Below the pieces are notes generated by a model. The model was not told where the DNA came from and made no database searches. It saw nothing but the letters and a program-made list of their open reading frames with translations. The translations under genes and the position numbers were made by a program. 64,000 nt of DNA, taken from IMG/VR virus record IMGVR_UViG_3300023174_000053, positions 62,001 through 126,000 of that record; one strand, 5' to 3'. Positions 3,323 through 52,311 of this stretch are shown one piece after another; within the stretch, counting starts at the first letter, position 1, and each line of letters starts with the position of its first letter. This DNA comes from a virus.

Positions 3323-5452
3323 TCAATCTTCGTCTTTTGGTTTAAATCTTCCAATTTCAGGCATTGAGTGTTGTTGCTTACCACCTCTCTTAGCAACACT
3401 TGTTCTTACACTATTGATATTATCAAATCTTTGAAGTTCTTTCATTCTTGCCTTTCTTTCCTTAGAACCAACATCAGTTCTTAGTGCTTGTAGTTGTCCC
3501 TCTTCATTATCAAGGAGTTTGCTTTCCTTTCTCTTCATTTTAGCAACAGGAAGAGGTTTCTTTTCTTCCATAATACTTTCAAACCAACCCTCACTCATAT
3601 TGTTGATAATCACATTTGCGTCATCAATTGTATTAGCAAAGTTATTTTCTAAAAGATATGATGCTACAAACTCGTATGCTTCATATGCCTCTCTATTGAG
3701 CATCTTTTTCTCTCTAGGGGTCAAAGCACTTCTTTGTGCTCCTCTTGCTGCCTGCTTTGCTTTTACCGTAGGGTCATTGGACTTATAAGCATATCCGTGA
3801 AGACCAGGATTTGAAGAAGTTGTATCACGGAAATCACCTCTTTGCTTTCTAGCAAGATTTTGTCTTGCATTTTGTTTTGCACTATCTCCATAAGTTGGTC
3901 TGTTTTCAAGTGCAGTTGCTCTATCAGCAGATTCTCCACCTTTTGTGTTTCTAGCAATCGTATTACGAATTGCAACCTCATCATAACCTCTCTTAGCCAT
4001 CGCAGTTGCTTCATTCGCAAGAACTTTCTTACGAATTGCTCCAGCAACTCTATTCCCTGCTTCTTTTGAACCATAACGTTTTGCAGCAGATGCAGCAATC
4101 TTCTTAAACATCAAACCTGGTTTGCCTTCGTCTCTTTCTTCAATATACTCAAGTTCTTCATAAATCTCAAACATATCATCCCAAGTATATCCACTTAGGT
4201 CATAACCTTCTTCAATAAGTTCATTTACCCAAAGTTCAACTTCTTCATTATAAGATTTGTTCTTCACCATAGCAATTGCTTTTGCTTTGGGAACACCAGA
4301 AGCAATCATTCTCGCAATTCTTACATCCGCAAAGTCATTATCACCATCTTCGTCTTGGTCTACTTTTTTCTTTGCTTCGTAGATTGAAGCATAAGCACCT
4401 GCAATTTCTCTAATTGTTTTTGCAGAAGGCCATTGATATGAAGAGGTTACATCTGACTTTTTGATGTCAAGTGCTTTTTTGAGCCTATCGGTTTCACCAG
4501 AAGAAGATGAAGAACCAGAACTTGAAGAAGATGAAGGAGTAGGAGTGCTTGGACCTCTATCATTATCAGCATTTACTCTTGCTGAAATCACATCCTTTCC
4601 TGCTTGTGGTGTTGAACTATTAGCAACCTTTCTTGCAAGTCCTGGATTAGAACGAGCCCAAGTATCCATAGGATTTGCTGAACTTGCTGCTGGTTTTGGT
4701 ACTGCAGAAGCAGCAGGTTTTACTGGTGCTGTAGGTGCTGCTGCTGGTTTTGCAGCTCCGCCAGAACTACTAGAACCACCAGAACCAGAACCAGAACCAC
4801 TTCCCGCAGAATATGCAGAAAGTCCAGTTGTTGAATGTACCGACGAAGAACCCGAAGTTGGTCTAGAACCAGGAGGGGCAGGTTTGCCTTGATCCATTCT
4901 TCCGAGATTTTTCTTACCTTGTGCAATTACTTGTGCAGTGCTACTTCCCATACCTTTTTGTGCAGCAGCATTTCCGCCACCAGCAGAATATGCTGATCTA
5001 TCAGCAGCAGATAGTCCAGAAACACCAGTAGAAGTTACTGATGATCCTTTTGGTGTTGTAGTTCCAAACTGTGGTTTTGTTGCTGCTGGTGGTTTTTGTA
5101 CTGGTGGTTTTTGTATACCAAATGCATTCCCGTATGCAGCAACATCATTTGCTCTATTTTGTGTTCTTTGACTTTGTTGTCTAGCAGAAGCAGCTGTTTG
5201 TTCTGCTCTTTTTTTATCACCAATTTGTTGAGACCTTTGCATAAATGTTTTTGCCGCAGCACTGTCACCAGAAGCCGCAGCTGCTCGTGACAATCCAGCA
5301 TTTCCACCTATTGAGGCAAAGGTATCTCTACCTTGTTGTGCTTGTTGAGCCTTTTGCACTCTATCAGCACTATAAGGTCCTTCATTCAACTGCTCTCCAC
5401 CATAAACACTTGAATATAACTCGTTCAATGCGTCTAAATCTTTTTTATTCAT
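3323..5452 (-). CDS. low-complexity virion protein with Ca-binding-like loop
   Basis: A 709-residue cyanophage structural-type protein. Residues about 30-320 are Ala/Ser/Gly/Gln-rich and look disordered, with a poly-Ser stretch near 305-320. After IYEAKKK comes an aspartate-rich loop, DQDEDGDNDFAD, resembling an EF-hand or dockerin calcium site, then helices. The C-terminal part is basic. Near the N-terminus, QLNE/GPYS fits the (I/L)-x-E/(A/G) cleavage rule of T4 prohead protease. The protein is probably packaged in or attached to the head. Its own late box lies upstream and a strong terminator follows. I know no biochemical function. Confidence 0.75.
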   Translation of the reverse strand: MNKKDLDALNELYSSVYGGEQLNEGPYSADRVQKAQQAQQGRDTFASIGGNAGLSRAAAASGDSAAAKTFMQRSQQIGDKKRAEQTAASARQQSQRTQNRANDVAAYGNAFGIQKPPVQKPPAATKPQFGTTTPKGSSVTSTGVSGLSAADRSAYSAGGGNAAAQKGMGSSTAQVIAQGKKNLGRMDQGKPAPPGSRPTSGSSSVHSTTGLSAYSAGSGSGSGSGGSSSSGGAAKPAAAPTAPVKPAASAVPKPAASSANPMDTWARSNPGLARKVANSSTPQAGKDVISARVNADNDRGPSTPTPSSSSSSGSSSSSGETDRLKKALDIKKSDVTSSYQWPSAKTIREIAGAYASIYEAKKKVDQDEDGDNDFADVRIARMIASGVPKAKAIAMVKNKSYNEEVELWVNELIEEGYDLSGYTWDDMFEIYEELEYIEERDEGKPGLMFKKIAASAAKRYGSKEAGNRVAGAIRKKVLANEATAMAKRGYDEVAIRNTIARNTKGGESADRATALENRPTYGDSAKQNARQNLARKQRGDFRDTTSSNPGLHGYAYKSNDPTVKAKQAARGAQRSALTPREKKMLNREAYEAYEFVASYLLENNFANTIDDANVIINNMSEGWFESIMEEKKPLPVAKMKRKESKLLDNEEGQLQALRTDVGSKERKARMKELQRFDNINSVRTSVAKRGGKQQHSMPEIGRFKPKDED

Positions 5453-13445: not shown

Positions 13446-14474
13446 TTATCTAACAGTTAATGTGGTAGTTCCAAGTCCAACTCCAGAAGTTGTTCCGGCA
13501 CCAGCAACGTTGCGGAGAATAACGTCTCCAAATTGTGAGGTGAATGAACTGATTACTCCAACACCATTTGAACCATCGGTAATTACACCAACAAATCCAC
13601 TTGAAATATCAATAAACAATTTAGTAGCAACAGTTCTTGTGCTGAATGTAACAACAGTTCCAATACCAATCACAGATGAGACTGTAGATGCCGTTCCAAT
13701 TGTAACAAAGGTATCACCAACAGCAACTACTGATCTTGTTGTGATCGCAGTTCCCACAGTAATTGAACTTCCTGCCGAAACTCCAGTCAAACTACCAACA
13801 TAAATTACAGTAGAACCAGCAGCAACTGTGGTATTAATAGTAGTGCTTAAGAATGAAACGTTTGTGGTAAGACCTACACTTGGACTCGTAAACGCAAATG
13901 CTACTCTGTTTGTAATTTGACCGTTGAAACTTGTATATACTCCTGGTGATCCGTGAGTAGCAGCGTATCCCGCCCAAGCATATTGAGTGCCGGTGTTTGA
14001 TGCAGCATATCCAATAATTGATGTCGATTCATTATTATTGTTTGCGTCAAAAGTACGAATTTTAACTGTTGCTCCAGCACCAGCAAAAACAAGTTCATTA
14101 AACACAACGTGAACATAACCAGTAGTATTTGTAGCAATACCAGTAGTTGCTCCACCACCAACAGAAATTGGTGATGCTTGGTTGGGGTCTTCAAAGAACA
14201 CCGCAACTGGACCAGCAGTTCCAATACCAGCAGATTGACTATTAACACCAACATTAGTAGCATTCAATCCAGTAACATCAACCAAGATTTCGTCAAAATA
14301 ACGAGTAGAAATTCCAGAATTCTCTCTAGTCTTGTATCTTCTTTGAACCCAACCACGAACATCTGCAAAAGTATTCCAAGGACTTGTGTTACGATCAGTC
14401 TCAAGTTGGAATTTTGGAATAGCGTATTTGTTTGCCGCAGTTTCCGATGTTGTTGAAATACCCCAAAGTGCCAT
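13446..14474 (-). CDS. virion structural protein ('ALWGI' family)
   Basis: A 342-residue protein starting MALWGISTTSETAANKY, a signature I associate with a conserved cyanomyovirus virion protein. The first 100 residues are a distinct domain (GWVQRRYKTRENSG). The rest is Gly/Thr/Ser/Val-rich beta-repeat sequence (AGSTVIYVGS, GSSITVGT, VGDTFVTIGT), similar in style to insertions in the phage's sheath and neck proteins, and probably surface-exposed. It has its own TATAAATA late promoter. Exact location in the particle is unknown. Confidence 0.8.
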   Translation of the reverse strand: MALWGISTTSETAANKYAIPKFQLETDRNTSPWNTFADVRGWVQRRYKTRENSGISTRYFDEILVDVTGLNATNVGVNSQSAGIGTAGPVAVFFEDPNQASPISVGGGATTGIATNTTGYVHVVFNELVFAGAGATVKIRTFDANNNNESTSIIGYAASNTGTQYAWAGYAATHGSPGVYTSFNGQITNRVAFAFTSPSVGLTTNVSFLSTTINTTVAAGSTVIYVGSLTGVSAGSSITVGTAITTRSVVAVGDTFVTIGTASTVSSVIGIGTVVTFSTRTVATKLFIDISSGFVGVITDGSNGVGVISSFTSQFGDVILRNVAGAGTTSGVGLGTTTLTVR

Positions 14475-14562: not shown

Positions 14563-16515
14563 TCAACAATTCCACTTTCTTAATGAAAGTGCTTTTCTTG
14601 TTGGTCTTCCTTTTTCATCTTTCATAGGACCAGGCATTCCACCCATACGGGCACAGAATGACTTTCTACGATTTGCTGCTTTACTACCTTTTTTAAGTTT
14701 TGATGGTTCTGTTGTAACCGCAAGTGAAAGATGAGACCCAGGATGCTCCCTACGATAAGAAGCAATACCTTTTTTGTTTAGTCCACCCTCGGGGTTCTTT
14801 CCTTCCTTACGTTGCCAAGCAGCACTTTCCTCTCCAATAATTCCCGAATTCAATTGAAAGTTTTTTTTCTTTTTTGCGTCTATTGCTTTTTTAATAATCA
14901 TCATCGCAAGAACTTTTTTCTTATCATCCTCACATCCACATTCTTCTGTTACATCTTTGTTCTTTTTCTTTTTCTTTTTCTTTGGTTTTTCAACATCGGC
15001 ATTCACTTGTTTCATTAGTTTCAAAACACCAGCAGTTCTATTTATTCTTTCACTTGGAGAAAGAGATGAAAAAGGTTCACGAGAATGCTGACGGAAAGTT
15101 TCATATTCATCATCATATCCTTCCGAAACAGGTTCAGTTTCACCAGACATATAATCAGCAACAGTATCAATATGATCTGCTGCTTTTGAGATTTTAGATT
15201 GAACCCAAGCAGGAAGTTGTTGATTTGGAGATTTTATTTTTTTACGAAGAGTTTTGACTGCTCTTTCCATCGTAGCAAGTTCATTATGAGCCATTCCACC
15301 TTCTTGGTCCTTTTCCTCTTTCATATTTGGATTGAGTTCAACTTTATTTTTACCACGCATTACATCAATAATTTTTTTCCTTTTTGCTTCTTTATCTTCA
15401 ACTTCAGCAACAAATTCTTCCCTTGAAAAAATTTTACCCACATTAGATAATGCCTTAGTATAAGCAGTTGCTGATGAATCATTAGAACTAATTGGTTCTT
15501 CACTACTACTTGAAGAACTTTGAGAGTTTGAACTATTGTCCCCATCACCCAATTTATTCTTAACTGTTTTTTTAATTACATTAGATACTTTAGACCCAAG
15601 ACCAGTTTCCCCAGCAGCTGCTGCTCTTCCTGCCCCAGAGGCAACAGATGCGGCCTCAGCAGCACCACCCGCTTCCAATGCAGCAAGAAGTGCTGGTAGG
15701 AACTCATGTAGATTTTCTATAGAGTTATTTTCTGAGAGTAGTTCTTCTCTCCAATCAAAATATTTTTCTTTGATCGTTGGTGGTTTGGGTGGTTTAGGTG
15801 CCTTGAGTGGTATAGGAGAAGAACGTTTTCCTTCGATTTCTGATGCTTCTTTCTTTGCCTTGTGTCTTGCTATACCATAATGAATTCCTGCTTTCGCAAC
15901 TCCACCAAAAAGAGACCCCACATTTCCAATTGCCTTTGTATAAGCAGTCGCATCACTATCTTTATATGAGATTGATTGTGGTTTACTAATACTAGAAAGA
16001 GCAGCACTCGCAGCTTTTCTTGGACTATCTTTAATGTCTTTTAATTGCTTCTTTTTTCTTTCTTCAGCATTTTTTTGAGCTTGATCTATAACCCACTTGG
16101 AATGTGCTCCTTTTCTTTTAGCTTCTTGTTCTCTTGTGGTTTGATGTCTTTCTCTTACTTTTACGTCTCTTTCTCGTAATTTTAGTTCTTCTGGGCTTAA
16201 TCTATTTCTTTTTTTCTGTTCTTTTGCTGAAACCTCACGAGTCTTTTTGTGTATATCGTAAGTCCTTTCTAATCTACCTGCCCTTTCTGGACCTGTTTCT
16301 TCTCCATCATCATCATATCCTGGAGCAATATATGTTTTATTAGATTGTCTAAATTGATTGGCTTTATTTCTATTTTTTTGATTTGGAGTTTTACCACTTC
16401 CTGGTAATTTTTCAGTTGGTTCATAATATCTTTCATAAACATCACAAAATTCATCCAAAGTATAATCTTTGTTTCTATCTCTTGCTTCAGCAATAATTTC
16501 GTTCCAAGGTCTCAT
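14563..16515 (-). CDS. basic head-associated protein with T4 capsid-targeting-like N-terminus
   Basis: A 650-residue protein. The N-terminus MRPWNEIIAEA matches the T4 internal-protein leader MKTYQEFIAEA in layout, with I-A-E/A at residues 8-11 as the predicted prohead-protease site. The body has long charged helices (about 90-180), an Ala-rich segment (EFLPALLAALEAGGAAEA) and Ser-rich linkers. The duplicated phrase SDATAYTKAIGNVG / SSATAYTKALSNVG marks an internal repeat. The C-terminus (AAWQRKEGKNPEGGLN, SFCARMGGMPG, SLRKWNC) is a small conserved domain I believe is DUF6321. It is probably a packaged DNA-associated protein; no enzyme activity is evident. Confidence 0.75.
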   Translation of the reverse strand: MRPWNEIIAEARDRNKDYTLDEFCDVYERYYEPTEKLPGSGKTPNQKNRNKANQFRQSNKTYIAPGYDDDGEETGPERAGRLERTYDIHKKTREVSAKEQKKRNRLSPEELKLRERDVKVRERHQTTREQEAKRKGAHSKWVIDQAQKNAEERKKKQLKDIKDSPRKAASAALSSISKPQSISYKDSDATAYTKAIGNVGSLFGGVAKAGIHYGIARHKAKKEASEIEGKRSSPIPLKAPKPPKPPTIKEKYFDWREELLSENNSIENLHEFLPALLAALEAGGAAEAASVASGAGRAAAAGETGLGSKVSNVIKKTVKNKLGDGDNSSNSQSSSSSSEEPISSNDSSATAYTKALSNVGKIFSREEFVAEVEDKEAKRKKIIDVMRGKNKVELNPNMKEEKDQEGGMAHNELATMERAVKTLRKKIKSPNQQLPAWVQSKISKAADHIDTVADYMSGETEPVSEGYDDEYETFRQHSREPFSSLSPSERINRTAGVLKLMKQVNADVEKPKKKKKKKNKDVTEECGCEDDKKKVLAMMIIKKAIDAKKKKNFQLNSGIIGEESAAWQRKEGKNPEGGLNKKGIASYRREHPGSHLSLAVTTEPSKLKKGSKAANRRKSFCARMGGMPGPMKDEKGRPTRKALSLRKWNC

Positions 16516-16543
16516 TTTGCTTAGATACTTCTTTTCTTACTTG

Positions 16544-16550
16544 TATTTAT
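16544..16550 (-). promoter_or_regulatory. late-type promoter box ATAAATA
   Basis: GATAAATAC on the minus strand, about 29 bases upstream of the 650-residue head-protein ATG. Confidence 0.45.
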
Positions 16551-16551
16551 C

Positions 16552-17610
16552 TTATTCGTAAAGTTCATGAACATCCTTCAACCAACTCTTAAACATCACA
16601 CCTTCTTTCGTTACACAAATTAAATGATTTGCTCCTCTACGAAGAATTCTTCCGACCAATCCACTATTTAAGTTTTCAACTAAAGAACCAACATCAAATA
16701 ATCCATTCTTCTTATAATTCCATCTCATTCCCTCATAATCCAATTCTGGGGCAATCTTCCAAATTTCAGTATCTTCAGTTACTTTCATTGAACGAGAAAC
16801 GGTATTGAACATTTCCTGTTTCTCTGCGGTATCCATATTTGCTGGAAGTCCAGTAGCAAATCTTTCATAATCTCCCATTGCTGCTGCTGTTCTCATCATC
16901 GCAGAAGAACCAGGACTTTCAACATCACTATCAGGGTCTTTCACACCAGATGGGACTACCTCAATATTATTAAACTGATATTGTTGTCCGTCTCCTTTGT
17001 GAACTAAACTTTGGAATTCTCCAAGTCTGTCTTGTCCCGTTACAATCACAACATCAGTATAACCATCATTATATACAGAACCCAAAACATCAAAAATAGT
17101 TTTTGTTTTATCACTATCTACAATATATTCCGCATACTCTGGGAACATAGATTGTAGATAAGAAATCTTTAATCCTGGATTGAGTGGATTTGTTGCTCCA
17201 TCTTCAATACGACTTGGATAAACTCTAAACTCAAATTTTCTTCGAGTTGCTTGTGAATATCCTGCCTTTAATAATGCTCCGTGATTTTTGGATGGAGGAT
17301 TGAATCTGCCAATCACAATCGCAACACCATTAACCTGCTCTGCTTCTGGTTGCTGTTGCTGTGTTGCTTGTCGTTGTGGTGCTGTTTGTTGCTGTTGTGC
17401 TCCTGCCTGTTTCTTTGCTCCTTGTTGCTGTTGAGCACCAGCACCACCTTGACCGAAATACTTTAACTTTCCACCTACAGTTTTTGCTACAAGATTTCCT
17501 TGATTATCATACCAATCACCATGACCATCTCCTTTAAGTCCGCGATTCTTTGCTTCAGTAGACGCAAGTGTTTCTACTGCTTCTTTGATAAATCTAGCAA
17601 AACTTTTCAT
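16552..17610 (-). CDS. nucleotidyltransferase-like protein with capsid-targeting-like N-terminus
   Basis: A 352-residue protein. MKSFARFIKEA aligns position by position with T4 MKTYQEFIAEA, cleavage being expected after Glu10. Residues 55-90 are a Gln-rich linker. Residues about 94-260 form a cytidylyltransferase/NMN-adenylyltransferase Rossmann fold: GRFNPPSKNHG (101-111) in place of the usual G-x-F-x-P-x-H-x-G-H, VTGQDR near 190, and SSAMMR (235-240) corresponding to the I-S-S-T-x-(I/L)-R nucleotide-binding motif. The first catalytic His of HxGH is replaced (KNHG), so activity may be altered. The C-terminal 70 residues look like a small beta-barrel. I infer a packaged protein, comparable in logic to T4 Alt. 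Confidence 0.75.
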   Translation of the reverse strand: MKSFARFIKEAVETLASTEAKNRGLKGDGHGDWYDNQGNLVAKTVGGKLKYFGQGGAGAQQQQGAKKQAGAQQQQTAPQRQATQQQQPEAEQVNGVAIVIGRFNPPSKNHGALLKAGYSQATRRKFEFRVYPSRIEDGATNPLNPGLKISYLQSMFPEYAEYIVDSDKTKTIFDVLGSVYNDGYTDVVIVTGQDRLGEFQSLVHKGDGQQYQFNNIEVVPSGVKDPDSDVESPGSSAMMRTAAAMGDYERFATGLPANMDTAEKQEMFNTVSRSMKVTEDTEIWKIAPELDYEGMRWNYKKNGLFDVGSLVENLNSGLVGRILRRGANHLICVTKEGVMFKSWLKDVHELYE

Positions 17611-17638: not shown

Positions 17639-18403
17639 CTAGAAACTACTATGAAGTAATTTCAAATCATTAGCATCATCTAATGAAAAATTACTTCTCG
17701 CAACACCATCACTTTTTAATGTTAATGTTGGTCTAAATGTTCCATTACTAGTACTTGATTTCCCCCTAATCACCAAACTAGCAGACGATGGAGCAAATCT
17801 TGGAATATCAATTGGAAGTTTTGAATTCAAACCCATTTTATCACTACCAAGAATATAAAATCCTTCATTTTTTATCTGTATATAATTAATACCCTTACTA
17901 TTATAATAAAATATAATTTTAGAAACAACATCTGGTCCAGATGCTATTGTTGTTTGTGGGAATGGATTTGAACTTCCAGTCTTTTCAGTTAAAAGTTTTT
18001 CGTAATATAAAATCTTAGCAAGATTTTGATTATTAACAATTTCTTGTAATTCAGTCGCAGACAACTTATTTCCTGGTAATCCCCAAGCTTGTTGTATTTT
18101 TCTATCTACATCATATTGCGAATAGAGATAATTATACAAACTAACTATTGATTGTGGTTCTGTTCCATCAAATTTTGCCACCCAAGAAGTTCCATTAAAA
18201 GTTATTGCCTTCTGTCCAAAGTCAGACTGTGTGGTTGTTTTTGCTTCAACCAAAAGTGCCTGCCCTGGATTAGTAGCAGAAGGTATAGTTAGGTCTGGAC
18301 CACTTCCAAATCCAGCATTTTTTGGAATATTTTTAAAAACTGATTTTAATTTATTCCTAAGGGTAATCTCATATTGTTTTCCTGCTAGTGCTGGATTAGA
18401 CAT
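17639..18403 (-). CDS. PD-(D/E)XK nuclease-like protein
   Basis: A 254-residue protein. Near the N-terminus is a restriction-endonuclease-fold signature: a helix with Glu12 (YEITLRNKL), then SGPDLTIP with Pro36-Asp37, and LLVEAKTTTQ with Glu53-x-Lys55 at the end of a strand. These form the D...E-x-K triad of PD-(D/E)XK enzymes, and a Gln-rich helix follows. The remaining 190 residues have no motif I know. It might be a structure-specific or restriction-like nuclease, or a packaged nuclease. The start codon directly follows a terminator U-tract and has no good Shine-Dalgarno sequence, so translation may be weak or leader-dependent. Confidence 0.6.
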   Translation of the reverse strand: MSNPALAGKQYEITLRNKLKSVFKNIPKNAGFGSGPDLTIPSATNPGQALLVEAKTTTQSDFGQKAITFNGTSWVAKFDGTEPQSIVSLYNYLYSQYDVDRKIQQAWGLPGNKLSATELQEIVNNQNLAKILYYEKLLTEKTGSSNPFPQTTIASGPDVVSKIIFYYNSKGINYIQIKNEGFYILGSDKMGLNSKLPIDIPRFAPSSASLVIRGKSSTSNGTFRPTLTLKSDGVARSNFSLDDANDLKLLHSSF

Positions 18404-21964: not shown

Positions 21965-22087
21965 TTATTTACCTTTTTGATATTTGTAATTGAACCAATA
22001 GGCCCAAAGTTTATTATATAACTGTTTATTGCCTTTAACAGATTCTATAATATATTTACATTCTTCTTCTGTAATTGAAAGTTCCAT
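21965..22087 (-). CDS. hypothetical 40-residue protein between gp43 and uvsX
   Basis: ATG overlaps the gp43 stop codon (TAATG) and the gene ends just before uvsX. It begins [18 protein letters not shown] and ends in an aromatic basic helix ([14 protein letters not shown]). Tight packing on both sides and an amphipathic helical composition argue that it is real. No domain is recognised. Its position suggests a small replication accessory protein. Confidence 0.65.
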
Positions 22088-23196
22088 TATCCAAAAAATG
22101 ATTCAAGGTTTACTGTTTTTTCTACTTTCCAGTTAATTGCATCCAAAATTACTTTCATTGGTTCCAAAAATGCTTTACTGAATTGTAAGTCATAATCAAT
22201 ATATTTGTCTAGTCCAAATTCTTTTGGGAATTCTTGAATATAAGAAATAACATTCTCACGAATTGGATTTGGAAGTTTTAAATAGCAAAATTTAATCTTC
22301 TCACCATTTTGAATCTTTGCATATTTCTTATCCAATTTCTTTTCTTTAATTAGATGATTATAGAGAATTGCTCCTCTTGCGTGAATAGGAGTTCCTTTAC
22401 AATAAAGAGTTGATGAAGATTTATGTTTATCTACGTCATTAATTGAACGTGGAAATGAAATTTCTTCTGGGGGAAGTTCATTAAATGCTTTACGAAAATT
22501 ATCTATAAAAGAAATCATTTCGTCTTCTGTTTTAGTCATTACAATTTTAAGAGCATCCTTAATCTTTTGACGACAAGGAGCAGGAGTAGAAGATTTGACT
22601 GCTTCCAATCCCATAATTTTTAATTTAGGTTCATCATACCTAACACCCTCACTATCCCAAACATTCAGAATGTATCGTTTTTTGGCAGTCCAGATTCCAC
22701 GGTCGGCAATATTCTCCCGTTTCATCTGCATCTTCTGGTCGTATGCATTTACATAGTCTGCCAGTTCTTGGTAAGAACTCTCAATATATTTTTCAAATTC
22801 CACCTCACAGACCTTATCAAGGAACCCAACAATTTCCTCAGTAGTTTTTTCTCTTCCTTTGTATACAGTCTCGACAAAAGGACCCATATTAAGGTAGATA
22901 GAATCAGTATCAGAAGCAATAACATAATCAACATCATTTGTTTTAAGAATTTTGTTTAGGTATGAATTCATTTTACGTTCAATCCAACGAATGGAAACTT
23001 GCCCAGACATTGTAATTGCTTCAGCATTTGCTAGTTTATAATACCTGAAATACTGATTACCGATAGCACCATACAAACTATTAATTTGTATCTTTCTAGC
23101 CATTTGGTTATTTGTATATTTTGATATATTTTTTATGCAATTTTGACGAAGTTTTTTCAACTCATCTGATGATATTTTAGAATAATCAATTTCCAT
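22087..23196 (-). CDS. 43B: DNA polymerase gp43, C-terminal part of a split gene
   Basis: The C-terminal 369 residues of a family B polymerase. It carries motif B in the fingers (KIQINSLYGAIGN), motif C in the palm (YVIASDTDSIYLN, with both catalytic Asp), the KKRY motif (AKKRYILNV) and the thumb. It has its own ATG (MEIDYSKI) but no strong Shine-Dalgarno sequence, and overlaps the HNH gene by 11 bases. Residues from IDYSKI onward continue directly from the ...KKRGID end of the upstream fragment. It should assemble non-covalently with 43A, as described for some Aeromonas T4-like phages. Confidence 0.92.
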   Translation of the reverse strand: MEIDYSKISSDELKKLRQNCIKNISKYTNNQMARKIQINSLYGAIGNQYFRYYKLANAEAITMSGQVSIRWIERKMNSYLNKILKTNDVDYVIASDTDSIYLNMGPFVETVYKGREKTTEEIVGFLDKVCEVEFEKYIESSYQELADYVNAYDQKMQMKRENIADRGIWTAKKRYILNVWDSEGVRYDEPKLKIMGLEAVKSSTPAPCRQKIKDALKIVMTKTEDEMISFIDNFRKAFNELPPEEISFPRSINDVDKHKSSSTLYCKGTPIHARGAILYNHLIKEKKLDKKYAKIQNGEKIKFCYLKLPNPIRENVISYIQEFPKEFGLDKYIDYDLQFSKAFLEPMKVILDAINWKVEKTVNLESFFG

Positions 23197-23860
23197 AATA
23201 TTTTTCCAAAGGAATACTTCTCCACATCAAAACTCTTGTTATATTTGAATTTTTTGCTCCATCTTTTCTGTAAAGATTTTGATTAGAAATCCAAATATTA
23301 AATTCTTTTTCACTCATAGAAATAAATTTTAATTTTGTATTTTTTCTAGTTTCTGATATTTTTTTTGATTTTTCTGGAGGACAAGGTAAAGATTTTCTAT
23401 TTTTGGGATACTCTATCTTCATTCCAATTTTTTTTTGTCTCATTTTTTCTATTCCATTTTTAATGACCTCATCATTAGCACCAAAATATTTTTTTCCCGA
23501 CATATCATTTCTTTTTTTACCTGTCCTAATTTTAGACAAACATTTTCTGGCAATTTCATATTGTCTAGATGTATATGTTCTTTCTTGCAAATCATTTGAA
23601 ACACACATCATAGCAAATGCAGACCCCATATTAAATGTTTTTCTATTTCTAATACCATATCTTTTCAAACATATTTTATAAAGTAACCAATGTGCTAAAA
23701 AATGTTCTCTTGCAGTCAAATAGACAATTCTATCATTTTTGCCATATATTGATATTGGAAAAATATGATGCCCCTCAAGATAAAGACCATCATAATTTTT
23801 TTTCCAATTTCGATTTTCTGTGAATTTGACTAATTTGCAATATATTTTTAAATAATTCAT
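23186..23860 (-). CDS. HNH homing endonuclease inserted in gp43
   Basis: A 224-residue protein. YLEGHHIFPISIYGKNDRIVYLT and AREHFLAHWLLYK form the H-H ... N ... H beta-beta-alpha metal site of phage HNH nucleases. The middle and C-terminal parts are lysine-rich and contain NUMOD-like helices (EKMRQKKIG, SKKISETRKNTK). ATG 23860 is chosen over a TTG four codons upstream. It occupies almost the whole insertion between the two polymerase fragments, and its stop overlaps the 43B start. A TATAAATAAT late box precedes it. It probably cuts uninterrupted gp43 alleles near the insertion point. Confidence 0.88.
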   Translation of the reverse strand: MNYLKIYCKLVKFTENRNWKKNYDGLYLEGHHIFPISIYGKNDRIVYLTAREHFLAHWLLYKICLKRYGIRNRKTFNMGSAFAMMCVSNDLQERTYTSRQYEIARKCLSKIRTGKKRNDMSGKKYFGANDEVIKNGIEKMRQKKIGMKIEYPKNRKSLPCPPEKSKKISETRKNTKLKFISMSEKEFNIWISNQNLYRKDGAKNSNITRVLMWRSIPLEKYYGN

Positions 23861-23882
23861 ATTAGACTTCAATACACTTTAT

Positions 23883-23890
23883 TATTTATA
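23883..23890 (-). promoter_or_regulatory. late promoter TATAAATA before the gp43 HNH gene
   Basis: TATAAATAAT starts just past the 43A stop and 23 bases upstream of the HNH ATG. It could also give late expression of 43B. Confidence 0.6.
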
Positions 23891-25366
23891 TTATAAAGTA
23901 TTTAAGTCAATACCACGTTTTTTTAACTCATTTTCAATTTCTTCTAATTTTGATTTTTCTTTCAACATTTCCTTTTTGAAAAATTGTCGATCATTAAATA
24001 TATTCTCAACAAGTTCTGGAAATATCCCTCTTTTGGTTGTATCATACATACAACCATTAGCAGAAACACATTTACCTTCAATATTTTCTATAACAATTTC
24101 CTTGTTGAGTAATTTATCAACAGTTATTCCTGGATATTTTTCATCTAAAAGAGTTTCTGGAGAAATATTATATTGCATAATAAGAGAAGGATATAGAGAT
24201 GTTAAATCAAAACTCACAATCCAATCATACTTTCCAGGAATCGGTTCCTTGACATATGCCCCCGCAAATTTATCACTCTTTTCTGAACGGTCTTTAGGAG
24301 GAATAACAATATTCCTTTTCTTCAAGTAGTTATAAATGATTGCATCCCAAGTTCTTACCTGAAAGAACACATCATTAAAATTAACCTTAGCATCATAAGC
24401 CATCGTAAAACATAGTTCGATAAGTTTCATCTTATCTTCTAATTGGTCTACAAGTTCTACGTCTCGAATATTATAATCAATAAACTTCTGCCAATCTTTT
24501 GTATAAAAATCTTTAAAAGTCTCAAATTCAGAGTGGTCCAATTTCTTTTGACCTAGTTCCACATTCGCAATATGATCTAGACGATAAGATTCCTGTGCCT
24601 TATAAGTAAATTTCTTATAAAGGTCAAGGTAATCAATTACAGAAACCCCAGCAACTTCATAAGAGATTTGTTCTCTTCCTTTAATTACAAGTTCTTTTCT
24701 GCGAATATTTCCCCAAGGAGAAAGACGACGTGCTTCCTTTTCTCCGAGAATTCTATCAATTCTTCCAGCAATATAAGGAATATCATACAACTCACAGTTC
24801 CAACCTGTAATCACATCAGGAGTTTCTCTTTCCCAAAATGCGAGAAAGTGCTGAATCAAATCAATCTCATCCCTACACTCAACATACACAACGTCCTTAC
24901 GAGTATTAATATAAGGACGAGAAGCAAAACAAATAATATGCTTTGTTGAGTAGTTTTGTAGTGTGATTGCTAGAAGTTCTTCGGCACAATCAAATACATT
25001 TGGGAATCCATTCTCAGAAGCAACCTCAATGTCAATTGTTACGAGACGAATTTTTTTAATATCAAACTTAATCTCATCTTCTGGATATGTTTGAGAAATA
25101 TATTGTGCTTTGTAATTATCATTACCATAAACAGTAAATCCTTCTACATTTTCATATTTCTTCAAAAATTCCTTACAATCTGAAATCTTTCCAGGTTGAA
25201 TTGGTTCAACACTCGACCCATCAAGAGTTTTATACTTACTTTGTTTTTTAGAAGTCACATACAGAGTTGGTTGAAACTCTTCCTCTGACTGAAAATACCT
25301 ACCGTCTTCATAACCACGAACCAACATTTTATTAAATTTTTCATAGACGTTGGTATAAAATCTCAT
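23891..25366 (-). CDS. 43A: DNA polymerase gp43, N-terminal part of a split gene
   Basis: The N-terminal 491 residues of the family B replicative polymerase. It has the 3'-5' exonuclease motifs DIEVASENG (Asp112, Glu114), WNCELYDIPY and YNIRDVELV, then palm motif A, SFDLTSLYPSLIMQYN, near residue 390. It ends within the helical region before the fingers, with four residues (LNTL) that do not continue into the polymerase. Motifs B and C are in the separate downstream gene. ATGA overlap couples it to the Sm-like gene upstream. Confidence 0.93.
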   Translation of the reverse strand: MRFYTNVYEKFNKMLVRGYEDGRYFQSEEEFQPTLYVTSKKQSKYKTLDGSSVEPIQPGKISDCKEFLKKYENVEGFTVYGNDNYKAQYISQTYPEDEIKFDIKKIRLVTIDIEVASENGFPNVFDCAEELLAITLQNYSTKHIICFASRPYINTRKDVVYVECRDEIDLIQHFLAFWERETPDVITGWNCELYDIPYIAGRIDRILGEKEARRLSPWGNIRRKELVIKGREQISYEVAGVSVIDYLDLYKKFTYKAQESYRLDHIANVELGQKKLDHSEFETFKDFYTKDWQKFIDYNIRDVELVDQLEDKMKLIELCFTMAYDAKVNFNDVFFQVRTWDAIIYNYLKKRNIVIPPKDRSEKSDKFAGAYVKEPIPGKYDWIVSFDLTSLYPSLIMQYNISPETLLDEKYPGITVDKLLNKEIVIENIEGKCVSANGCMYDTTKRGIFPELVENIFNDRQFFKKEMLKEKSKLEEIENELKKRGIDLNTL

Positions 25367-38094: not shown

Positions 38095-39528
38095 TCACAT
38101 AAGGTTAGAAACCTGTACTCTTCTGTAGTAACGGTTTGAGTTGGTCGAAATTTGACCAAGACCTTGTGTTTTACCTTCTGCAAATGGGTTAGCAACAAGA
38201 CCATAACGGGTCTTAAAGCCAATTTTTGGTTGGAAGGTGTTCTCACCAACGGCACGAACCATTTGGAGAGGAACATAAGGACAATAGAAGAGACCTGCAT
38301 CATAAGGGGAAGAACCCTTATAACCGACAACATAGTACTGACCACCAGTTGCACCAGTTGCTGGGTTACCAGCACCACCCGAATATGGGTCGATATAAAC
38401 TTTATACTTACCGTTAAGAACACCAGCAAAAGTATTGCCAGTATCGTCTACGTTAAGGTTTGCATTGAGTGCAGGGGTGTAGTCAAGAAGACCAGCCATC
38501 GAAAGTGCAGAAGCAACATCCGAAGAACACATGATGATGTTGCCTTTTCCTCTACGAGTTCTTTGTGCGATTGCGTTAGCATCACGCTCGATTTGGAAGA
38601 TAAGACCTTTGAATTTCTCAACCGACCAACGACCGTTGGAATCAACGTCAAGGTCAAAAGTACCAGCAGTAGCAGTGTTGAACTGAGCACCAGCTTCAGC
38701 AGTCTTGTAGATGGTACGAATAACTTCACGGTTGATTTCAGCAAGAATCTCAGTTGAGAGAATGTTTGCCAATTCCGCTTCAGCATTCAGACCATGAATT
38801 GCCTTGAGGTCTTGTGCGAGCTCTAATGAATACTCAGCCTTGAGTGCTCTTGACTTTGCAGTAACGGTGACTTTCTCGATTGAGAATGCCATTTCGTTGA
38901 AACTTTCAGAACCTGATGCACCAAGTCTTTCTGCATCATAGGTAGCCATACCACCACCTACGTTGTAGGAAGTACCAGCAGTACCAACAGCATTCAGAAG
39001 ACCGGGGTTGCTACCAGTTTGTGAAGCAGTAGTACCGAAACCTACGTTTGCTTCAATAGTAGGATCAACAGCATACTGGGTTTGAGTTCCCTTTCTTCCA
39101 GAGAACTGAGTATCAACTTCATCGAAGAATGCTTCAGCACCTGATTGACTGGTATAACGTGAACGCATTGCGAAGATGAGTCCTGTGGGACCGTTCATTG
39201 GTTGAACACCTGCGAGGTCATATGCGACCAAGTTAGGCATTGAACGACGGATTAAGCTGATTAGAACAGGGTCGAAACCTGCAACTGGACCAGCTGCTGC
39301 GTTTCCACTAGCACCATATCCACCACCAAAACCAGCACTACTAGTAGTTGAACCACTATATGATGCTTCGCCAAGGAATTCTCTTTCCTCACGAAGGAAT
39401 TTCTCTTGATTCTCCAGGAGAACTGCGGTTACCATTCTACGATGTGAATCTTTGATTCCATCAAGTCCCTGATAGTCAAGGAGTGGTGCCCACTTCTCCT
39501 GCAGATGTTCTGCGTTGAACATTTGCAT
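38095..39528 (-). CDS. 23: major capsid protein (T4 gp23)
   Basis: A 477-residue capsid subunit of the HK97-fold. The N-terminal scaffold-interacting stretch (MFNAEHLQEKWAPLLDYQGL) ends at EREFLGE/ASYSG, which fits the (I/L)-x-E/(A/G) prohead-protease site. The mature part has the conserved cyanophage gp23 segments PNLVAYDLAGVQPMNGPTGL, FAMRSRYTS, KAEYSLELAQDLKA, ERDANAIAQRTRRGKGN and YVPLQMVRAVGENTFQPKIG. The AGAGGT Shine-Dalgarno sequence lies seven bases before the ATG. It is bounded downstream by a strong terminator. Confidence 0.98.
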   Translation of the reverse strand: MQMFNAEHLQEKWAPLLDYQGLDGIKDSHRRMVTAVLLENQEKFLREEREFLGEASYSGSTTSSAGFGGGYGASGNAAAGPVAGFDPVLISLIRRSMPNLVAYDLAGVQPMNGPTGLIFAMRSRYTSQSGAEAFFDEVDTQFSGRKGTQTQYAVDPTIEANVGFGTTASQTGSNPGLLNAVGTAGTSYNVGGGMATYDAERLGASGSESFNEMAFSIEKVTVTAKSRALKAEYSLELAQDLKAIHGLNAEAELANILSTEILAEINREVIRTIYKTAEAGAQFNTATAGTFDLDVDSNGRWSVEKFKGLIFQIERDANAIAQRTRRGKGNIIMCSSDVASALSMAGLLDYTPALNANLNVDDTGNTFAGVLNGKYKVYIDPYSGGAGNPATGATGGQYYVVGYKGSSPYDAGLFYCPYVPLQMVRAVGENTFQPKIGFKTRYGLVANPFAEGKTQGLGQISTNSNRYYRRVQVSNLM

Positions 39529-40847: not shown

Positions 40848-41498
40848 TTAAAGATTTGATAAAAAGTTCTGGAACAGATCAACTTTCTGTTCTTCCAAAC
40901 GTTTTTGATCTACTAATGTGTTTATTTTTCTCTTTGCTGCTTTTGCGGCTCTTTCGCGGAGAATTCCACCTTCCCAACACCACTCCTTTCCTTCCATAAT
41001 TCCATTTACAAAAGCATCAGGAGCAGAAGGATCAGCAACAAGATCTGCTGCTGTTGCCAACATAAAATCTTCACCAACTACTGAATAACCTTCATTAGTT
41101 GGAATTAATGAACCAACACCACGAGAAGAAACTCCCAACATCACACCTTCACCGAGAAGAGATTCTGCAATTTTTCCCATAGGAGTGGAAAGAATTTTTG
41201 CTCTTCCTTTAAAATTATCTCCAACTCTCTCTAAACAAACAATTTTATGAGAAACTCTATCAAGGTTTAAAGAAGGACCATCAGGGTGACCTAGTTCTCC
41301 AAGAGCACGACCTTTTTGAATATAATTTTCATTATATCTTTTGACTTCTCTTTCGAGAGTTCTCATTTCATAGAGACGCTTGTTTCTGTTTGGTTTATTT
41401 GCTTGAAGAAAAATACCTTCAATAAAAAGAGACTTTTTACCGTTGGTTTCTTCGACAATAACCTTAACCTTTTCGATTTCTTCTGTGATGAGTTTCAT
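40848..41498 (-). CDS. 21: prohead maturation protease (T4 gp21)
   Basis: A 216-residue serine protease that cuts capsid, scaffold and internal proteins after (I/L)-x-Glu. Start MKLITEE has AGGTGG about nine bases upstream and follows the stop of the previous gene. The active-site His71 is in GELGHPDGPS and the Ser is in LGVSSRGVGS (124/125), the expected ~55 residues apart. An additional acidic residue follows near FMLATAADLVADPSAPDAF. Its predicted specificity links it to the Glu-Ala sites noted in several proteins here. Confidence 0.94.
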   Translation of the reverse strand: MKLITEEIEKVKVIVEETNGKKSLFIEGIFLQANKPNRNKRLYEMRTLEREVKRYNENYIQKGRALGELGHPDGPSLNLDRVSHKIVCLERVGDNFKGRAKILSTPMGKIAESLLGEGVMLGVSSRGVGSLIPTNEGYSVVGEDFMLATAADLVADPSAPDAFVNGIMEGKEWCWEGGILRERAAKAAKRKINTLVDQKRLEEQKVDLFQNFLSNL

Positions 41499-41502
41499 TG
41501 GA

Positions 41503-42054
41503 TTAACCACCTGCGATTTGAATTTCTGTGATGTGGAGTTTTCCACTTGCTCCATAAGCAGCAACTTTTGTTGTTCTTCTCAAAACACCAGTAGGAGTAG
41601 TTACTGGACCTTGACTTGAAGTATTCCAAGTAAGAGTGATAACTCTATTAAATCCACCTGTTCCAGCACTGTTTGATGCATTTACTGAAGCAACAGTTGC
41701 TGCTGTTGTGTTGATGCCCGATGGAACAACACCAGTAAGTTCAACAATATCACCGGCAGAAAAATCAGAGAAAGTACCTTCTGGTAAAGTTACAATAGTA
41801 GTAGTACCAGTAGTAACACCAACAATAGTTTGAGTAGTTGGTGTATCTCTTAATATAAGTTCAGTTCCTGCTTTAACAAAAATGCTAGCATTTGTAGTAG
41901 TACTAATTGTTGGAGTTGGAGCAACCTCAACATAAGCATCTTGTTCTGGAACAATTCTCAAAAAACCAGACCTCAAAGCAATTGGATTGCTGGTTACTGC
42001 TGCACCAGTCATCGTCAATGGCGTAATCTTTTGTACAATCTTATATACGGACAT
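41503..42054 (-). CDS. conserved virion structural protein
   Basis: A 183-residue protein. It starts MSVYKIVQKITPLTMTGAAVTSN, a conserved cyanophage opening. A beta-rich middle has a repeat-like module (TQTIVGVTTGTTTIVTLPEG, FSDFSAGDIVELTGVV) and it ends ASGKLHITEIQIAGG. It lies between gp20 and gp21 genes and has a late-type box, so it is likely a head or decoration component. Not further assignable. Confidence 0.7.
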   Translation of the reverse strand: MSVYKIVQKITPLTMTGAAVTSNPIALRSGFLRIVPEQDAYVEVAPTPTISTTTNASIFVKAGTELILRDTPTTQTIVGVTTGTTTIVTLPEGTFSDFSAGDIVELTGVVPSGINTTAATVASVNASNSAGTGGFNRVITLTWNTSSQGPVTTPTGVLRRTTKVAAYGASGKLHITEIQIAGG

Positions 42055-50835: not shown

Positions 50836-51014
50836 AAATTAATAGCCATACTTGCGACTGTTTCTTGTTGTTTGAAATAAAGTTTTACATAAGATTTTGA
50901 TATATTCTTCAAAAGTTCTACATCATCGCAAGAATCAATTTCCCTAGAAATTTTTTCATATTCAAAAATCTTAGAAAGATTATCTAATTTAATATCATTT
51001 GGATCCATTTTCAT
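50832..51014 (-). CDS. small conserved protein upstream of gp17
   Basis: A 60-residue helical protein, MKMDPNDIKLDNLSKIFEYEKISREIDSC in outline, then DVELLKNISKSYVKLYFKQQE. Two amphipathic helices predicted to pair. It overlaps the head-protein gene before it by 20 bases and gp17 by four bases, so it is translated with terminase. Start may be Met1 or Met3. Function unknown; a terminase cofactor is a guess from position. Confidence 0.65.
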   Translation of the reverse strand: MKMDPNDIKLDNLSKIFEYEKISREIDSCDDVELLKNISKSYVKLYFKQQETVASMAINL

Positions 51015-52311
51015 TTCCTGTGAATAGTAAAGGTTTTGTTGGGTCTTTTACGGATGGATTGTATGATAAAACAATCGCACCAGGATATATTTTTCTTACT
51101 TCAAAAGTGACCTGATCTTTTGGAGGTCTAGCAAATTGCGGGAAAAACATTTGAGCTGAAATATATTTTCCTCTCCAATTTAACAGAATACTATAAGTAG
51201 ATCCACGAGACTGTATCCGTGTATATATTTCTTGAATATTTTTTAAATTTTTCATCTTTTTATAATTATATTTTTCTTTCATATGGGATGAAAAAATATT
51301 ATGAATTATTTCCTTTGTATGATCGTGTGGTTCTACGGCAAAAGAATATGCTCTCCAAAATTCAGGTCCATGTTTACATACGTGCATATGTTCCATTTTT
51401 TTACATTTTGGGCAATACCTTTCTTCTCCTCCATAAATGGGAGTGTCCCATTCATACGCAAGAGCATCAGTACTTTCCGATTTCGTTCCCCAACTATCGG
51501 CACCGACTTTGCGACATTTGACAAGTGCTCCAGAAGCATATGCAGAAGGCCAAACTTTATATCTTGATTTTACTTTTTTATAGCAAGCGTCTTTTTCACC
51601 AGCAGATTCATTTGTGGCAACCATTTTTGCCTTACCTTTTCTATCTGGATTTGGGTCTTCTCTTCTTTTTCTTCTTGCTGCTGTGTCTTCTTCCTCATCT
51701 GACATATTTGCAGCCATTTTTGATGAACCACATTTTGGTTTAGTAGTTTGTCCTGGTTGACGGGCACAAGGAGCACCAGCAAACTTTCCACCAATTTGAG
51801 TCCATCCTTTTACTTTTTTTCCTGTTTTTGGATTTGTTCCACTTGATTTCGCAAACCAATCATGGAGAGATTCATCTCCAGATGCAGTTTCTTCACTAAC
51901 ACCTTTCATTCTTTCTGGTTTAATTAAATCAATAATTTCTAAAAATGTATTTCCGTTTGCATCTTCAATCGTAACTGTTTCCTTTACATCTTTGAACTTT
52001 TTGTGTTCTTTTTTCGCACTTGCTTCCATTTTTTTGAGACGAGTATAATAATCTGGTATTTCATCGAGATGCTGAAGAGAAATATAAGTTGCTAATGTTT
52101 TATTTTTTGTATGTTCGTGCTCAATAGGAATTCCCATCTTAAGTTGTTTTTCAATAAAAGACACTTCTAAACGGTGCTTTGTCGCAATTGCTTCAACCGT
52201 TTTGTGTGGTTTTACTTTAGGGCACTTTGCTTTTCCGTGAGTGGGACAATCCATTCCTTTTGGACTTCCATTACAACTTGCCTCTAAAATAAATTCCTGA
52301 AAAGTTTTCAT
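50995..52311 (-). CDS. internal-head-protein candidate with T4 capsid-targeting leader
   Basis: A 438-residue protein. MKTFQEFILEA differs from the T4 IPIII leader MKTYQEFIAEA at only two of 11 positions; prohead-protease cleavage is expected after Glu10. Cysteine/lysine-rich sequence follows (CPTHGKAKCPKVKPHK). Next comes a helical domain with EHEHTKNKTLATYISLQHLDE and YYTRLKKMEA that I associate with DUF5661. A basic Lys/Arg linker precedes CYKKVKSRYKVWPSAYASGA, a small domain seen in other phage head proteins, and a zinc-knuckle-like CPKCKKMEHMHVCKHG. It lies between gp16 and gp17. It probably enters the prohead and is ejected with the DNA. Confidence 0.75.
   Translation of the reverse strand: MKTFQEFILEASCNGSPKGMDCPTHGKAKCPKVKPHKTVEAIATKHRLEVSFIEKQLKMGIPIEHEHTKNKTLATYISLQHLDEIPDYYTRLKKMEASAKKEHKKFKDVKETVTIEDANGNTFLEIIDLIKPERMKGVSEETASGDESLHDWFAKSSGTNPKTGKKVKGWTQIGGKFAGAPCARQPGQTTKPKCGSSKMAANMSDEEEDTAARRKRREDPNPDRKGKAKMVATNESAGEKDACYKKVKSRYKVWPSAYASGALVKCRKVGADSWGTKSESTDALAYEWDTPIYGGEERYCPKCKKMEHMHVCKHGPEFWRAYSFAVEPHDHTKEIIHNIFSSHMKEKYNYKKMKNLKNIQEIYTRIQSRGSTYSILLNWRGKYISAQMFFPQFARPPKDQVTFEVRKIYPGAIVLSYNPSVKDPTKPLLFTGNENGSK

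Follow-up and report, generated by a model that had tools for sequence, protein, structure and literature searches.

A T4-type capsid-targeting leader on a nucleotidyltransferase and partner proteins of a T4-like cyanophage, probably head-internal cargo

Leaders of the T4 internal-protein type at three gene starts

Do two adjacent genes of a T4-like cyanophage encode proteins that travel inside the virus head? The genes lie in a 64,000-nucleotide stretch of viral DNA (hereafter the window), positions 62001–126000 of the 171,027-base IMG/VR record IMGVR_UViG_3300023174_000053, which represents a T4-like virus of marine cyanobacteria with T4-like replication and head genes. One gene encodes a 352-amino-acid (aa) nucleotidyltransferase (NTase) and the other a 650-aa protein; an earlier note on the window had placed both in a block of head-internal proteins sharing the leader of the T4 internal proteins. 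We find it highly probable that the leader-bearing proteins are head-internal cargo, loaded by the leader, cut by the prohead protease gp21 and ejected with the DNA. Packaging is well supported; location inside the head, cleavage and ejection we infer.

The two open reading frames (ORFs) were present as described, spaced by 36 nt (Table 1). Their starts, MKSFARFIKEA for the NTase and MRPWNEIIAEA for the 650-aa protein, agree with the T4 leader at positions 7, 8, 10 and 11, as does MKTFQEFILEA at the start of a 438-aa protein elsewhere in the window. Position 4, missed by the earlier note, is aromatic in all three leaders (tyrosine in T4 IPII and IPIII). As summarized in passages of two reviews (PMC9026906, PMC3012670), the first 10 residues of T4 IPIII suffice for packaging (Mullaney & Black 1996), targeting depends chiefly on residues 4 and 7 and processing on residues 8 and 10, and Asp at position 10 stops cutting with loading unaffected. 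The window leaders, of about 10 residues, carry these key positions 4, 7, 8 and 10. The genome also encodes a gp21-type protease, recognized by N-terminal similarity, and a site of the gp21 type lies in its major capsid protein, FLGE|A at residues 51–55, as the note had stated.

Every ATG start of ORFs of at least 60 aa in the whole 171-kb record was scanned for the leader. Three true gene starts fitted and no others; a looser pattern added one internal ATG. Among about 208 gene-like ORFs, the pattern M[KR]x-aromatic-xx-phi-phi-x-E (phi, hydrophobic) was observed three times, compared with 0.032 expected from shuffling residues 2–31 (Poisson P = 5.6e-6, uncorrected, like the other P values here, for shared ancestry), and the same pattern run on T4 recovered exactly IPII and IPIII. 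The note was right about the leader, and the case for it is stronger than the note had put it. That the likeness is functionless convergence on a common amphipathic start is extremely improbable. The motif is short, and loose definitions give occasional chance hits in T4, S-PM2 and S-SCSM1, but the excess of 3 over 0.03, the conservation over 69 distinct sequences and the virion association described below speak against it, as does the same motif in leaderless relatives exactly at the DUF6321 junction (below).

In the explanation that we favour, the 10-residue N-terminal capsid-targeting sequence (CTS; M[KR]x-aromatic-xx-phi-phi-x-E|A) would bind the prohead core, the phage gp21 protease would cut after Glu10 during maturation, and the mature cargo proteins would remain with the DNA and pass into the cell when it is ejected. 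The cargo enzyme would be a NadD/CoaD-like NTase tied to its leader via a flexible linker and a small module that other proteins share, and its partner a Lys-rich, fast-changing protein ending in DUF6321.

The note had also counted 709- and 446-aa proteins among the set. The strings QLNE/G and IYSE/G are indeed present, but such E|G strings are generic, the N-termini lack the 4/7/8/10 pattern and the genes lie 8–11 kb away; both were rejected as leader-bearing members. The 709-aa protein (3323–5452) starts MNKKDLDALNELYSSVY, which resembles M(D/N)xKxxxxLxEAYxAVY starts on other variable proteins, among them the virion protein S-SCSM1 gp089 (L047:9539–10510), and this start is perhaps a second leader type.

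The nucleotidyltransferase and its orthologues in virions

The NTase set comprised 112 IMG/VR relatives, 110 with a complete start. They were picked for likeness to the window protein, a choice that favours members with the leader; the leader fitted in 106 of the 110. Across 69 distinct leaders, for which leader fit was part of the filter (as it was not for the 106/110 count), F4, F7 and E10 are constant, position 8 is L, I, F or V and position 11 is A or S in 66, with drift at positions 3, 5, 6, 9, 12 and 13. A second alignment (A2) showed F7 invariant and M1, K2, F4 and E10 at 90% or above. T4 genetics assigns the conserved positions to targeting (4 and 7) and to processing (8 and 10), which supports the capsid-targeting reading. 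One NTase locus holds a further small leader-bearing ORF (MKTFLEFISEAENVSSQIAQLRARARML; L134:1069–1488).

Passages of three proteome papers place orthologues of the NTase in virions of other phages than this one: S-SM1, where it is T4-GC190, 'citidylyltransferase' (PMC3037559), S-SCSM1, by mass spectrometry (PMC9602691), and S-CREM2 (PMC10665884). All three orthologues carry the leader. Carriage into the host is already proposed in these passages, with contamination as the alternative. The block envisaged by the note found support as a local block of virion proteins: in S-SCSM1 the syntenic gp089, gp282, NTase, gp280, gp279 and gp277 are annotated as virion proteins (mass spectrometry).

The S-CREM2 genome allows the leader to be compared with a virion list. 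The strict leader occurs on 4 of 219 annotated proteins (0.46 expected), and all four are among its 52 virion proteins (Fisher P = 0.003): a SAM lyase (PF23780, E 2.3e-19), a kinase-like protein, gp136 and the NTase. The proteome authors gave most of them no structural placement. Also in these virions are gp12, annotated as Cas9, with the leader at residue 17 plus the DGHG module described below, and gp13 (one peptide), with a leucine version of the leader. The name Cas9 for gp12 (L046:7704–10313) looks unsupported; a Pfam search gave no domain, and the protein appears HNH-like by eye. The expectation that leader proteins cluster near structural genes failed, as the S-CREM2 SAM lyase and kinase genes lie at 3.8–12.8 kb, far from the head genes, yet encode virion proteins. 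We rejected any rule that leader proteins always lie near structural genes, with S-CREM2 gp6 and gp14 and a GNAT protein of S-CRM01 placed elsewhere. The last, protein 185 (L209:1546–1941), is a GNAT-like acetyltransferase (below Pfam cut-offs) starting MKTFDEFLTEG and is predicted to be a further leader-bearing enzyme cargo outside the cargo block.

Several points weigh against head-internal cargo. The virion evidence comes from proteomes of other phages, none of this phage, and passages describing those proteomes state that they were made from CsCl-purified particles and allow for contamination. Four complete NTase relatives deviate from the exact leader, and the NTases of S-PM2, P-HM2, S-MbCM7 and jumbo phages are leaderless, so that the enzyme is not always cargo. 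Of two leader proteins in S-SCSM1 one, the NTase, is on the virion list, and gp030 (106 aa) is absent from it. The missing ancestry correction of the P values belongs here too. S-PM2 itself has a leaderless NTase fused to a DUF6267-type segment and no strict leader hits in its genome; its NTase went undetected in an earlier virion study, which also missed several true structural proteins (cited in a passage of PMC3037559). This is weak but consistent agreement with a link between leader and packaging.

The claimed nucleotidyltransferase fold was confirmed by profile and by an AlphaFold2 model, for which alignment rows were taken from the IMG/VR loci. Fold search was needed because PDB sequence searches gave nothing with the single NTase sequence and marginal matches only with a profile; Foldseek matched the model to nicotinate mononucleotide adenylyltransferase (NadD, 2.5e-5) and phosphopantetheine adenylyltransferase (CoaD, 2.4e-4). 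The (T/H)-x-G-H signature of this family is found in 74 of 98 distinct relatives, and the other 24, the clade of the window protein, have S-[KR]-N-H or G-K-A-H; the window NTase has S-K-N-H. The second signature (S-S/A-x-x-x-R) is present as GSSAMMR, with S235 invariant in both alignments and R240 in at least 90%. The window NTase is placed in the NadD/NMNAT-CoaD family on its fold and profile rather than on its active-site signature, and we do not call it an active NMNAT. The leader is retained even where, as in this clade, the catalytic signature has degenerated, and the altered signature makes a binding or structural role possible. Our best guess at its function, held with low confidence, is nucleotide- or NAD-type chemistry that would protect early infection.

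An NTase that is an ordinary intracellular infection enzyme, acting in NAD or nucleotide metabolism and reaching virions only as a contaminant, is unlikely in our judgement. Its annotation as a cytidyltransferase or NMNAT, the flanking replication genes, the leaderless versions in other phages and the contamination raised by the authors in passages on two proteomes would fit such a role. However, the NTase recurs in three independent proteomes together with its neighbours, the strict-leader proteins of S-CREM2 mostly lack a structural placement, and the leader is kept at the T4 targeting and processing positions even where the catalytic signature is lost.

The window NTase stops at 352 aa, and near-identical relatives (L011, L014, L045) have 395–397 aa with a GT..Y.....M.PGQ tail, so that a C-terminal piece was lost within its lineage. 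The C-terminal beta domain that remains also exists as a stand-alone phage protein (phrog_4808; S-PM2p144). In many cyanophages the NTase is preceded by DUF6267 (T4-GC71; L065:1467–2660, L062:3772–4983, L058:3775–4995), whose VTTKWDGAP is reminiscent of the ligase KxDG motif and which is absent here.

The DGHG module and DUF6321

About 38 residues follow the NTase leader, including AKNRGLKGDGHGDWYDNQGNLVAKTVGGKLKYF, and form in the AlphaFold2 model a small ordered unit ahead of a disordered linker. Their pattern is LxxDGHGxWYDxxGxxVAKTxxGKL. A hidden Markov model (HMM) built from IMG/VR NTase N-termini only was searched against 17,158 ORFs and matched the S-CREM2 kinase (4.5e-19, two copies), the 'Cas9' protein gp12 (6.8e-12) and S-CRM01 128c (2.2e-12), with a weak match to the S-CRM01 kinase (8e-5). 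Removing the leader left the first three matches at 1.2e-16, 8e-13 and 3.9e-14 and dropped the S-CRM01 kinase to 0.028. Genes for a kinase, a module protein and the NTase are adjacent in S-CRM01 and in metagenomic relatives, with mostly leader-like starts, and the S-CRM01 block also holds small proteins with such starts. An alignment of the module alone against viral contigs returned 6 loci only, again the kinase-module-NTase block. The presence of the module on a kinase, on the protein annotated as Cas9 and on the NTase means that unrelated enzymes have leader and module in common.

The leader-bearing proteins could instead be virion proteins that are not cleaved cargo, with an N-terminus that docks to the neck, tail or capsid surface, or they could be scaffold-core parts degraded before maturity. 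Gene positions agree with this, since the cargo genes adjoin a probable virion surface or tail protein (the 342-aa MALWG family) and genes of the 438-aa type adjoin neck and terminase genes. We consider it quite improbable nonetheless, as the motif is the leader of the T4 internal proteins and includes a site of gp21 type like the FLGE|A of this phage's capsid protein, and scaffold does not typically take the form of a multi-domain enzyme that has a disordered linker.

The 650-aa protein is fast-changing and Lys-rich and carries DUF6321 (PF19846) at 80.2 bits against a curated cut-off of 28.5. Mean identity among its close relatives is 74% over the first 12 residues (inflated, as these relatives were chosen by leader pattern), 32% over the next 100 and 64% over the last 75. 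Unselected relatives have more varied starts in the wider clade (MTYWEKYIFED, MANWREELLFE) and leaderless starts in more distant phages, and among relatives of the gene the same leader stands ahead of different bodies. The 438-type protein and DUF6321 form a single gene (T4-GC119) in S-SM1, P-SSM2 and S-SCSM1; in P-SSM4 this gene lies within the NTase block, not near gp16. The virions of S-SCSM1 and S-CREM2 contain homologues of both the 438-aa protein and DUF6321.

The N-terminal leader occurs on 34 of 56 complete distinct relatives of the 438-aa protein, always without DUF6321, while the domain is found in 15 of the 22 leaderless members; the count is uncorrected for ancestry, and MKTFQEFI was among the search patterns. 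Four of the 15 have a CTS-like segment directly before the domain (MKTFGDFMSEASAAW, GKTFFQFMIEASAAW), a motif found 4 times in 240 junction positions versus 0 in 8,523 elsewhere. The idea that DUF6321 alone replaces the leader was softened once this internal segment was found. DUF6321 appears to be a second unit of packaging that brings a cleavage site of its own; judging from these sequences, it may once have been a separate packaged polypeptide that became fused to others and is possibly released by gp21.

A broader proposal is that the CTS leader, often with the DGHG module, is a portable loading code for injected effectors on unrelated enzymes, and DUF6321 a second packaged unit, formerly a leader-bearing polypeptide by itself and now joined to C-termini, that keeps its gp21 site and is released on maturation. 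The enzymes so loaded would include the nucleotidyltransferase, a protein kinase, a SAM lyase, an HNH-like protein and a GNAT acetyltransferase. We put this forward tentatively, as a possibility with somewhat less than an even chance.

Neighbouring genes and relation to known head cargo

Table 1. Positions of the leader-bearing genes, their parts and the maturation components in the window
Feature	Positions	Strand	Basis
352-aa NTase with capsid-targeting leader, T4-GC190 / phrog_395 family	16552..17610	-	phrog_395 E 9.9e-67; AlphaFold2 model and NadD/CoaD fold matches
NTase leader, residues 1-10 MKSFARFIKE, predicted cut before A11	17581..17610	-	T4 CTS rule; kept in 106/110 complete relatives; low confidence/disordered in model
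NTase post-leader 'DGHG' module, residues 15-52 (AKNRGLKGDGHGDWYDNQGNLVAKTVGGKLKYF)	17455..17568	-	Ordered in model (predicted local distance difference test, pLDDT, about 80-84); also on virion kinase and HNH-like/'Cas9' protein
NTase Q-rich disordered linker, residues 53-90	17341..17454	-	pLDDT <50
NTase core, residues 95-280, GRFNPPSKNH and GSSAMMR	16771..17328	-	pLDDT mostly 85-95; Foldseek NadD/CoaD; motif survey
NTase C-terminal small beta domain, residues 305-349	16564..16698	-	Strands in model; phrog_4808; S-PM2p144
650-aa leader-bearing protein with C-terminal DUF6321	14563..16515	-	PF19846 E 1.8e-22; homologous domain on virion proteins S-SCSM1 gp029, S-CREM2 gp137
650-aa leader, residues 1-10 MRPWNEIIAE, predicted cut before A11	16486..16515	-	Same motif; leader conserved versus diverging body
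Candidate gp21-type site IIGE|ES immediately N-terminal to DUF6321	14824..14841	-	CTS-like FxxFMxE|A at same junction in relatives
DUF6321 domain, residues 572-648 of 650-aa protein	14572..14802	-	Pfam
438-aa leader-bearing protein between gp16 and gp17 (DUF5661, phrog_727 / T4-GC119 family)	50995..52311	-	Homologues S-SCSM1 gp029, S-CREM2 gp160 are virion proteins
438-aa leader, residues 1-10 MKTFQEFILE	52282..52311	-	ATG-start scan and shuffle test
Prohead protease (gp21) homologue, true start probably internal MKLITEEIEKV	40848..41564	-	N-terminus like annotated S-SCSM1/S-CREM2 proteases, by eye
FLGE|A maturation site of major capsid protein (gene 38095-39528)	39364..39378	-	Residues 51-55; S-SCSM1 counterpart FLAE|A

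The 342-aa MALWG protein (13446–14474) adjoins the cargo pair; its family is named tail fibre, S-layer or head protein in relatives and is found in S-SCSM1 virions. Immediately upstream of the NTase, 17639–18403 encodes a 254-aa protein (GFGSGPDLTIP...LLVEAKT) that is nuclease-like by eye and gave no family match. Phages that are otherwise near-identical (L014, L023, L030, L033) have other, unrelated genes in its place, a hypervariable slot beside the cargo genes. PADLOC, run on the cargo genes and the variable upstream genes, returned weak kinase matches only. Farther along, at 22087–25366, a 228-aa HNH-type ORF interrupts DNA polymerase gene 43, leaving parts of 491 and 369 aa; the arrangement resembles an intron or homing-endonuclease-like insertion.

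The cyanophage proteins resemble T4 IPI, IPII and IPIII in a 10-residue leader that agrees at the key positions (aromatic 4, hydrophobic 7 and 8, E10, A/S11), in strongly diverging bodies behind it and in a genome that encodes the gp21 protease. The T4 internal proteins are small, whereas the cyanophage leader stands at the front of multi-domain, enzyme-like proteins that have an additional shared module, and in relatives it also occurs internally, before DUF6321. P1 DarA/Hdf antirestriction head proteins and SPN3US ejection proteins are head-internal and delivered with DNA; they are comparable in the way they work. T4 Alt, to which the earlier note compared the enzyme, is a packaged, injected ADP-ribosyltransferase processed by gp21 at both ends. 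The window fold is of NadD/CoaD type, no relation between the two was found, and Pfam, PHROGs and fold searches gave no ADP-ribosyltransferase fold for the NTase; Alt-like action after ejection may be considered by analogy only.

The 'cytidyltransferase/NMNAT' virion protein of cyanophages (T4-GC190) is the orthologous enzyme, from which the window NTase differs in having S-K-N-H for T-x-G-H and in missing the last ~43 residues of its close relatives. The T4 CTS and the presence of the NTase in virions were known already. What appears new is the link between CTS and NTase, together with the shared module and the pattern of DUF6321: the passages on T4-GC190 in PMC3037559, PMC9602691 and PMC10665884, which already suggest host carriage, mention neither a packaging mechanism nor the leader, the T4 rule or the shared module, and a literature search, with subscription literature outside its scope, found no paper tying a capsid-targeting sequence to cyanophage cargo.

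Enzymes recur in cyanophage virion proteomes, and authors have been undecided between cargo and contamination; the T4 leader supplies a mechanism. It also supplies a testable rule, by which residues 4, 7, 8 and 10 should decide packaging and cutting, and makes the injected enzyme set of the ocean's commonest T4-like phages predictable from sequence. If the leader is indeed a portable code, scanning for it would predict which proteins thousands of marine phages inject. The SAM lyase, kinase and nucleotidyltransferase are candidate early-acting proteins to try against host defences, and these viruses probably inject an enzyme kit along with their DNA.

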